A DNA stretch of 64,000 nucleotides, taken from positions 95,436,501-95,500,500 of the forward strand of contig NC_091124.1 of NCBI RefSeq assembly GCF_040183065.1, in the 5' to 3' direction. Origin of the DNA: Periplaneta americana (taxonomy: Eukaryota > Arthropoda > Insecta > Blattodea > Blattidae). A program made the position numbers and the translations under genes. Below the pieces are notes generated by a model. That model ran no database searches. It had not been told where the DNA came from and saw nothing but the letters and a program-made list of their open reading frames with translations. Positions 42,432 to 54,238 of the stretch are shown one piece after another (position 1 is the stretch's first letter; each line of letters begins with the position of its first letter).

Positions 42432-42708
42432 CTTTAACTAATAGGTGAAGTTGCTAATATCAACAACACGTGAAATAAGTTACATGAAGCTAAATAAAAT
42501 TCTAAGAATGTAACGGCTTATAGTAGAGCGTCTCGCTTAGGCACAGTGAAAACATGAAACAAAGTGCAGATAACGTGTGGGGGAAAGACTGGCCGTACGA
42601 TATACACGAGGGATGCACAAGGTTTTAGATACAACATTAATGGCGGGGCATTAATTGAAATTATATTTTCCAAAAACTCACAAAACAAAAGAACACAAAT
42701 TGCATAAC

Positions 42709-42716
42709 GTTATCAT
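42709..42716. repeat. hAT target duplication, left copy (gttatcat)
   Basis: Exact 8-bp match to 44913-44920, flanking the hAT element. Confidence 0.95.
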
Positions 42717-44912
42717 CAGGGAACGGATTTATATGGACTAAAAATATATGAAATATGTAAATATATATGTAGTTATTTTTACCAAAATATGGAATTAAAT
42801 ATGGATTTTTACCAAAATATGGAATTAAATATGGACTTAAAATTATAAAAAAATGACTATGTACGTTAAATATTGGTACATTTTAATCAAACTAAACAAA
42901 AAATATAATGGACGTACCTTATCTTCCAATGTAGTTTCAACAAAACACAATTTTTATTGTCTGTTACCATAACAATAGGTTACAAACATTTCTTTCAAGT
43001 GCTGAAAAGTGAATCTTCTTCTATTGTCTCTGAGGATAGATTTATACTGACTAAAAGAGCGTTCGACGTCACAAGAAGTAACTGGTACATAATTCAATTT
43101 CACAATGTCTGCTGGGGATAAGTCCAAGTTAATCTTCACTGTTGATTCACCACTCATCACAGCAACAACCTTTTGTAGTTCTTCATATCCAGGGTTTTTT
43201 GAAAGTACAGTGTCCACCTTAGCTCTTACTGCATCTGCAACTTTACCTCTACCACGATTCAGTTGTTCCACAGTACTATTTATAATTTCAAAACTTTCAG
43301 ATAGTGAAAGGTGCCTATTTTGGAGACTTTTGAGCGTTTTTATGATGCATGAAAATGTATGCTGAATGTGAGCTAAGTCATTCTTCACACTTATGTCACA
43401 GGTAACTGTTTTCGCAGTATCAATTGAGACTGCATCTTCAGAGTCCAATGCAAGGAGAACATTGTTAATAGAGTCTATATGTTCGGCATAATATTCAACT
43501 GCTTCTAGCCATGTACCCCATCTAGTTAAAATTGGCTTTGGTGGCAATGGAATTTCAGGGTACGTTTCTTTCAACACGTTAACTCTACTGGGAGCTTTGA
43601 GAAATACTTTTTTCACTGATGAAATCAACAAATCTACTTTAGGGAAATTGTCTCTGACCACTTCTGCCACACGATGAAATGCATGCGCCACACAAGTAAA
43701 ATGAGTCAATTTAGGATATACAACAGATAATGCTTGTCCAGCTTTGACCATATAAGGGGCAGCATCGCTAATAAAGAATAACACATTATCGTACATAATA
43801 CCCTTTGGCCACAGGATACCCATAGCTTCGTTGAACAGTTTAACTATAGTTTTGTTATTGCACTTTTCTAGAACATCACAATGTAAAAGAATTCGTTCAG
43901 AATATTTTTCACTTAACAAACCGATAACTACATTACCAACAAGTCTACCTTCTTTGTCGGGAGTCTCATCAATGGAAACCCAAATTGAACTATCTTTAAT
44001 TTCATCTCTTATCTTCTGTATTGTCTCATCGTAGATGGATGGAGCATACGTCTTCCTAAGTGTTGACTCATCCGGGATTGTATGTTGAGTATATTTTTCA
44101 AGGAATTCCCTGAAGACCTTATTCTTTAGTTTGTAGAGAGGAATATCAGCAGAGATGAGAGAACGGCACAGGTCGATGTTAAACTCAGATCTTACATTCG
44201 ATGTTGTTGGTTGTGTTAAAAACAATTGTCTCTGCTTGGAATTTAGTTGTTTGTTGGCCTGATGTTTACTAGTTGTAATGTGTTGTTGCACCAGGAACTT
44301 TTGTGTAGATGATACTGCACACTGACACAAATTACAAAATAATATTTTATTGTCAGTTGATAAACCATCTTCTTTAAATTCTGAAATGTAACTTGTTAGT
44401 TTTGATTTTAAATTGACTGAATGACGTACTTTTGGCATATTTACCGTCTTTATAGTATGATTTACAAAACTGAACCTATGTGTACTCTGACTGGCATTTA
44501 ACTGTTGAGCTGCACAACTGAAGTCTGTTAAAAATTTTAAATTAAATTAATACAGTTTTGTAACTTACTTTCCCATTGTTGATAGGACTGCTAATTTTCA
44601 AATAACTCTGATGTTAAAGGGATTACTGAACATGTGTTTAAATCTCTATTGTTGAAATGTATTTTTAAAAGTTAATGGAATTTTGTTTTGTTTTATTGTT
44701 AAACCTAATATAATATGGACTGTTTTATATGAAATATGGAAAATATATGGAAATTAACGAAAATATGTACTAAACTCTAAAATATGGAAAAATGTGGAAA
44801 ATAAAAGTAGGATTTTTCAACCCTACACATTGTGAAACATAAAGATAATGCAAAATATAAATTATATTAGCTTTATAAGTAAATATGTATTTACATATAA
44901 ATCCTTTCCCTG
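42717..44912 (-). mobile_element. Intact hAT transposon (hAT-1)
   Basis: 2,196 bp. The left end cagggaacggatttatatgg and the reverse complement of the right end (cagggaaaggatttatatgt) match at 18 of 20 positions. It is flanked by perfect 8-bp duplications GTTATCAT. Subterminal AT-rich repeats (aatatggaattaaatatgga) occur inside the left end, and aatatgg motifs occur on the right. One intact transposase ORF lies on the minus strand. Because the target is the inverted arm of element X, the empty site can be read from the other arm at about 54044-54052, confirming the ends. All structural parts look functional. Confidence 0.96.
42954..44438 (-). CDS. hAT-family transposase with BED zinc finger
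   Basis: 494 codons, ATG at 44438-44436, stop at the low-coordinate end, no breaks. It cuts and pastes the 42717-44912 element. Residues 35-59 form a BED-type finger (C35-X2-C38-X14-H53-X5-H59) for DNA binding. The catalytic region has D157 in VSIDETPD and D225 in FISDAAPYM, followed by CVAHAFHRV (249-257), the conserved RWGTWLEAV, and an insertion-domain helical stretch. Near the C-terminus, [10 protein letters not shown] (E459) marks the hAT dimerisation/catalytic segment. At about 500 residues it is shorter than Hermes or Ac (600-800), as in compact insect hATs. A broken paralogue lies at 51630-53060. The noncoding flank to the TIR (44439-44912) would hold its promoter. Confidence 0.95.
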
Positions 44913-53315: not shown

Positions 53316-53761
53316 GAGTTGTTTTAATTTATAACTTCCTTATTTTTGAACATCCCATTATGAAAATTTGACAGCCTAATGAAAATGCTCAGTAAATTGT
53401 CATTTATTTTTTTTATGTGAAGTGAAATATTCGATTTTATGTAATGGCGTTTTTTTCATATATTTTTGAATTTCTTTAAACACAATTTTCAGAGCTGCGC
53501 TGAATTATAGTATCTTTATAACCTATTTTGTAAGCTACCTAGCGATATCTTAAAAAAAAAAATTTGTAATTATTCTTACGGTCAGAAAACAAATTTAAAG
53601 TAGAGCTGTGCGCTCAAATAAAACTATTTTAACTGCCCATTACATTTAAACGGTAGCTGTCGCTAACACAATTTTGTACATGATTAATATATACGACATG
53701 AAGAGTTGAATGTACAACTTTTAACAAATTTGGAGATATGAATGTTTTTCATCATACTGTT

Positions 53762-54238
53762 TTGCATGGAATTACCCAATTACCAAAGTTCAATTTATTC
53801 AGGTATACCTTGAGAAGGAATGATTATGTTTAGAAAATAGTGTTGTCACTTCAGACCAATATACTGTAGTTTTGTTAATTCGGCCACAAAAGACGGAGAT
53901 ATTGTGTTAGTCATACAGAGAATGAAATTCATGAGCGTAAAATATGCTGCTTGAAAGCAACATCATATAAGTAGCAAAATTTGATTTGTCATATTGAATT
54001 ATTTCTACGTTCCATTTTTATTGCTTGTTTGTTAAAATGTGTATATGATAACGTTATGCAATTTGTGTTCTTTTATTTTGTTTGTTTTTGAAAAATATAA
54101 TTTCAATTAATGCTCCCCCATAAATGTTGTAATTTAACCCTTGTGCATCCCTCGTGTTTATCGTACGGCTCGTCCTCCCTCTCACGTTACCTGCACTTTG
54201 TTTACGTTTCCACTGTGCCTAAACGAGACGCTGTACTG
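53762..54238 (-). repeat. Element X right inverted arm (uninterrupted)
   Basis: 477 bases, the uninterrupted version of the left arm, showing the empty sites of both the hAT-1 and solo LTR insertions. Confidence 0.85.

Follow-up and report, generated by a model that had tools for sequence, protein, structure and literature searches.

A candidate new long-TIR transposon in Periplaneta americana is best explained as one DNA transposon nested in another

Several described groups of DNA transposons bear on Element X, an 11.7-kb structure at 42521-54238 of the window, by which we mean the whole 64,000-nucleotide stretch of Periplaneta americana DNA analysed here (assembly GCF_040183065.1, contig NC_091124.1, 95,436,501 to 95,500,500). 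Those portions of PMC10741241 that treat them describe Sola elements as 2-9 kb long, with a DDD (three-aspartate) transposase, terminal inverted repeats (TIRs) of 11-1124 bp and target-site duplications (TSDs) of 4 bp, and Mutator-like elements as producing TSDs of 7-12 bp. For Sola2, the corresponding portion of PMC3627910 gives the TSD form as AWWT.

A sequence-only reading of the window had taken Element X for a single transposon, possibly of an undescribed family, in which arms of about 450 bp serve as the TIRs of a protein-coding element. The features that it reported and their nested layout are confirmed, and its outer coordinates, 42521 and 54238, are exact. The join of arms and protein into one element was nevertheless wrong, as the arms belong to a separate palindromic repeat whose target site is TA, whereas the protein-coding core has short TIRs and 4-bp TSDs of its own. 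The two elements occur separately elsewhere in the genome, empty palindromes retain the site into which the core was inserted here, and copies of the core share an internal deletion. We therefore regard the locus as best explained by two independent DNA transposons, the core nested in the palindromic repeat, with a probability of about 0.95.

Separate occurrence of the arms and the core

Self-comparison of the window bears out the inverted arms, in that 42522-42716 pairs with 54237-54045 at 87.7% identity, 44913-44953 with 54052-54010 at 88.4%, and 45713-45893 with 54019-53838 at 93.4% (best E value across the arm blocks, 2e-73). The arms also recur, including as paired copies: when the assembly (3,231,669,367 bases, 91 contigs, as in all genome searches here) was searched with the 477-bp right arm, 70 matches came from the 40 scored of 2111 candidates. 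Twelve loci chosen for back-to-back arms, aligned with L002 and L006, gave 14 palindromes that span about 0.82-0.95 kb; between their arms there is hardly any spacer, or none, and a coding core would not fit (the centre of L048 is longer, and L052 lacks a central stretch). The palindromic element ends in CAGTAGAGCGTCTC and its target site is TA, which follows 24 of the 28 outer ends; the two flanks are identical for exactly 2 bp (TA) in ten palindromes and for 4 bp in one. The outer ends of Element X fit this element because TA stands directly outside both. A long-TIR Mutator-like element was considered for the arms and rejected, as a TSD of 7-12 bp would be expected and identical flanks of between 5 and 12 bp are found in none of the 14 palindromes.

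The two arms of one palindrome (mean identity 0.909 over 14 copies) are no more alike than arms of different copies (left against left, 0.917; right against right, 0.897; left against the right arms of other copies, 0.907), which suggests that the palindrome is probably ancestral and spread in palindromic form. Since the 12 fetched loci had been chosen for pairing, the 12 arm loci without a reported partner were read as well (L003, L004, L007, L008 and L075-L082, with L005 in addition). No core was matched, within the span read, in any of the 27 arm loci read of the 39 besides the window's.

The core, for its part, begins with GGGTCATTCCATAC and ends, inverted, with GGGTAATTCCATGC, termini that match at 15 of their first 18 bp in the window copy. 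AATT flanks it on both sides, and most empty palindromes have a single AATT at the matching insertion point. The 30 loci that match the GDFSENY block of its protein best (L009-L038, L009 being the window's own) have in common the interval 45903-53777, minus two later insertions (an RTE-like element and the second of two hATs) some copies being gapped. Besides the window's own, 29 of these loci remain, and not one of them matches an arm piece in the flank read, which extended at least 100 bp beyond one core end in all 29 and beyond both in 19.

Target duplications were compared at the 19 loci of L010-L043 whose two ends could be read by script (18 of those 29, plus L039). The 4-bp flanks are identical in 14 of them and differ by at most one mismatch in 17, compared with a mean of 1.2 identical and a maximum of 7 when right flanks were shuffled (2000 trials); identity at 2 bp occurred at one locus and at 3 or 5-8 bp at none. 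The identical duplications begin with A in 12 of 14 and end with T in 9, their middle positions being mixed. Kolobok and piggyBac were rejected for the core, as TTAA is absent from these 14 and from six identical duplications in the related groups described below.

Of 1493 candidates for a 224-bp query that spans the left junction, 40 were scored; the window alone matched at full length, and the other 39 scored matches all begin at position 87 or later, on the core side. The seven that reach furthest upstream (L068-L074) have no arm; a further composite would be expected to rank above them. Among these, L068-L072 were rejected as possible composites: five core copies on four contigs, they have near-identical left flanks that contain no arm, and the core there thus sits in a larger duplicated repeat.

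It is very improbable, then, that the locus is one long-TIR transposon. The protein does lie between the arms at this locus, and arms and protein alike are multi-copy, but AATT, core and AATT with the core's own TIRs lie inside the arms, empty palindromes exist, and the counts from other core loci, other arm loci and junction matches all speak against it. The sequence-only reading was thus right in seeing a multi-copy, uncharacterised family that very probably encodes a transposase and mistaken in giving it the long arms; in the loci examined, the protein family was found only outside such arms, this nested case excepted. Weaker still is a one-off local inverted duplication, which has nothing in its favour beyond the inverted arrangement itself, when a palindrome with identical ends stands at many genome sites.

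The features of the locus are as follows.

42519..42520, unstranded: TA target site to the left of the palindromic element, as the flanking TA at other palindromes
42521..45898, plus strand: left arm of the palindromic element, which resembles a miniature inverted-repeat transposable element (MITE), interrupted by a hAT and a solo long terminal repeat (LTR)
42717..44912, minus strand: nested hAT transposon 1, with a 530-codon frame at 42954-44546, DUF659, and TSD GTTATCAT
44949..45713, unstranded: nested solo LTR (TG...CA), TSD AAAT
45899..45902, unstranded: left AATT copy of the core's 4-bp target duplication, with empty sites in other palindromes
45903..53777, plus strand: core transposon, about 2.56 kb minus its own insertions, TIRs GGGTCATTCCATAC and GGGTAATTCCATGC
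46664..46969, plus strand: putative transposase residues 1-101 (numbering of homologue P0001), in-frame stop present
46990..47627, plus strand: putative transposase residues 376-592, with a stop and a frame shift; residues from about 102 to 375 gone
47627..50674, minus strand: nested RTE-like non-LTR retrotransposon with RVT_1 and Exo_endo_phos, TACT-repeat tail at the low end
50689..50947, plus strand: putative transposase residues 601-687 (TPKELYDW block)
51022..53293, plus strand: nested hAT transposon 2, DUF659, broken, TSD ATAGATCA/ATAGGTCA
53778..53781, unstranded: right AATT copy of the core's 4-bp target duplication
53782..54238, plus strand: remnant of the palindromic element's centre and right arm, ending in ...GACGCTGTACTG
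54239..54240, unstranded: TA target site to the right of the palindromic element

The protein family and its predicted transposase

The ranges 47182-47663 and 50542-50868 contain the protein blocks reported from the window (GDFSENY, AEWHFFGTSHGKG and TPKELYDW), and the genome search supports a multi-copy family, with 150 matches from the 150 scored of 2530 candidates. The family as a whole (941 hits) has the blocks GDFSENY, FSDGAASQYKN and HGKGxxDGxGG, an N-terminal CCNPF, and a six-cysteine domain that precedes a predicted DDD core. Structure prediction gave an RNase H-like model with a candidate triad, D458, D543 and D584, conserved in 66/66, 66/66 and 65/66 family sequences, respectively. 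The suggestion that aspartate-rich spaced blocks mark a transposase is thus supported by the model and its triad together with the TIRs and the 4-bp TSD; the core family is predicted to hold a DDD triad in an RNase H fold, and its protein is very probably a DDD transposase.

Known families offered little help. No Pfam match for P0001 (697 aa, 80% identical to the L041 read-through) reached its cut-off, the best being AAA_9 at E 0.0012; for the family protein NCBIfam gave nothing above cut-off, and a sequence search of the PDB found no match at E <= 1. Scans with patterns from the family alignment confirmed no relative among 26 viral-contig and 137 bacterial or archaeal stretches, and, in a literature search unable to show absence from print, none of the papers listed for the motif letters has a title about transposons. 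Public records label the proteins hypothetical or uncharacterised.

Compared with P0001, the window copy and most of L009-L038 lack residues from about 102 to 375. The left block ends at reverse-complement positions 1562-1568 of L041 in 28 of these 30 loci (L026 is truncated, and in L029 the block ends earlier), a share that applies to loci selected by likeness to the window copy. The middle part is retained in L040, L041 and L043, selected for longer frames. In L041 a stretch of about 670 bp (3508-4177, reverse-complement) is unmatched in the other core copies compared and is probably a further insertion. The window copy retains the first (GDFSENY) and third (HGKGSSD) aspartates; stops, frame shifts and a Gly in place of the second (FSGGAAS) make it very unlikely to yield an active transposase. 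Judged by these lesions, the window core is a dead, internally deleted derivative.

When the genome was searched with P0001 and 64 of 7208 candidates were scored, additional loci of about 40% identity came up, several of whose frames are long or uninterrupted, and eight of these loci, in four further groups, were fetched. Five (L060-L063 and L067) form one family with 96-98% mutual identity over 3.6 kb, and the remaining three are single loci, 69-77% identical over shorter stretches to that family or to each other. All eight have lengths of 3568-4152 bp and GRGTCATTCCA-like ends, with TIRs of about 22 bp that carry GAGTCATTCCA or GGGCTATTCCA (L060 has a single-letter change at one end), and the link between protein and termini therefore holds beyond the window's family. 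Their 4-bp flanks are identical in six cases, with a single mismatch in L064 and L065. The frames of L060-L063 and L067 are nearly open, and these, with the high mutual identity, suggest a family apparently younger than the window's.

By published description the core family probably belongs to Sola, which weakens the suggestion of an undescribed family; the placement is a probable one and not proved. It is conceivable, if rather unlikely, that the core family stands apart from Sola1, Sola2 and Sola3 as a superfamily with its own 4-bp duplication preference: its TSDs are looser than AWWT, and the likeness to Sola is one of description. Against this, the DDD transposase, the 4-bp TSD, the length and the TIR range all match what the portions of PMC10741241 on Sola describe. 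A similarly tentative standing attaches to treating the GDFSENY / FSDGAASQYKN / HGKGxxDGxGG family, with its GRGTCATTCCA termini, CCNPF and six-cysteine domain, as its own superfamily or a fourth Sola-like lineage.

That the proteins are instead domesticated host genes and no transposase is highly improbable. The records and the Pfam and NCBIfam results would allow it, but copies are very many, dispersed and often broken; TIRs with 4-bp TSDs accompany both the window's family and the eight loci of four further groups; and the internal-deletion derivative is shared by copies and the model is a DDD RNase H-like one. Some family members elsewhere could nonetheless be domesticated. A large, Pfam-unlabelled protein family thus gains a testable identity through its TIRs, TSD, predicted fold and candidate catalytic residues, and gene annotation could mask it as a transposase.

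Several observations weigh against the reading of a transposase-derived core nested in a palindromic repeat. Nothing in the PDB or viral libraries matched the whole model in Foldseek at E <= 0.001, and the highest-ranked PDB entries are unrelated proteins; the fold call consequently rests on re-ranking, secondary-structure order and conservation. A flank of at least 100 bp is seen at one end only in 10 of the 29 core loci, and L028 and L038 differ at three of the four TSD positions (the L028 mismatch looks like an additional base at the junction). Four of the 28 palindrome ends lack TA, and the TA may be the element's own terminal TA, indistinguishable from a target TA by these data alone. Finally, a rare second composite of arm and core could exist, since each genome search scored only part of the copies.

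Nested insertions and a proposed history

The four nested insertions described in the left arm and core are real. The first hAT is bounded by a perfect 8-bp duplication, GTTATCAT at 42709-42716 and 44913-44920, and its 530-codon frame is uninterrupted, so it looks recent. The solo LTR has AAAT on both sides and TG...CA ends. The duplication of the second hAT, ATAGATCA/ATAGGTCA, agrees at seven of eight letters and is seen too as overlapping alignment ends in other copies. The retroelement at about 47627-50674 we take to be of the RTE clade, from its characteristic features and not a tree; a second RTE-like copy, at 34545-35738, is 87% identical to 47643-48874 on the opposite strand.

Elsewhere in the window, self-comparison found tandem-repeat arrays at 1483-2914, 17907-18549 and 38074-39245, as well as three copies, about 89-90% identical, of a dispersed repeat some 240 bp long (12874-13134, 19563-19822 and 63484-63721). 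Another inverted-repeat pair, 22180-22326 with 22772-22918 (92.5%), and a stretch at 23669-24289 with 73% identity to its own inverted sequence are both possibly MITE-like.

We postulate that a palindromic, non-autonomous fold-back element of about 0.85 kb came to the locus first, mobilised at TA like Tc1/mariner elements and presumably by a mariner-type transposase. A 2.6-kb non-autonomous deletion derivative of a DDD-transposase transposon would then have inserted beside the palindrome's centre, duplicating AATT, and later insertions would have brought the RTE-like element and one hAT into the core and the other hAT and the LTR element into the left arm. The core family would move by cut and paste, with an RNase H-fold transposase (putatively catalytic at D458, D543 and D584) acting at the GRGTCATTCCA-like termini and making 4-bp staggered cuts, and full-length relatives perhaps supply it in trans to the derivatives.

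Comparison with known systems

What had been read as a new long-TIR transposon is here corrected to a nested insertion, and its parts resemble known systems to different degrees. The two hATs are ordinary members of the DUF659 type, with 8-bp TSDs (7/8 in the second) and DUF659 matches. Like RTE-clade retrotransposons, the nested retroelement has an AP (apurinic/apyrimidinic) endonuclease followed by a reverse transcriptase and a short tandem-repeat tail, but unlike an intact RTE element it is split into several frames. The arms share a TA target site, many copies and terminal inverted repeats with MITEs or fold-back elements of the Tc1/mariner type, and the palindromes read likewise have no room for a transposase gene; unlike in such MITEs, almost the entire element consists of its arms of about 430 bp. 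The core family resembles Sola in its 4-bp TSD (identical in 14/19 copies, and in 6/8 of the related groups) and in its candidate DDD residues in a predicted RNase H-like fold, and its relatives, at 3.57-4.15 kb with TIRs of about 22 bp, fall within the 11-1124 bp TIR range of Sola (the window derivative being about 2.56 kb); its duplications, in contrast to the AWWT of Sola2, follow an A..T form only loosely.
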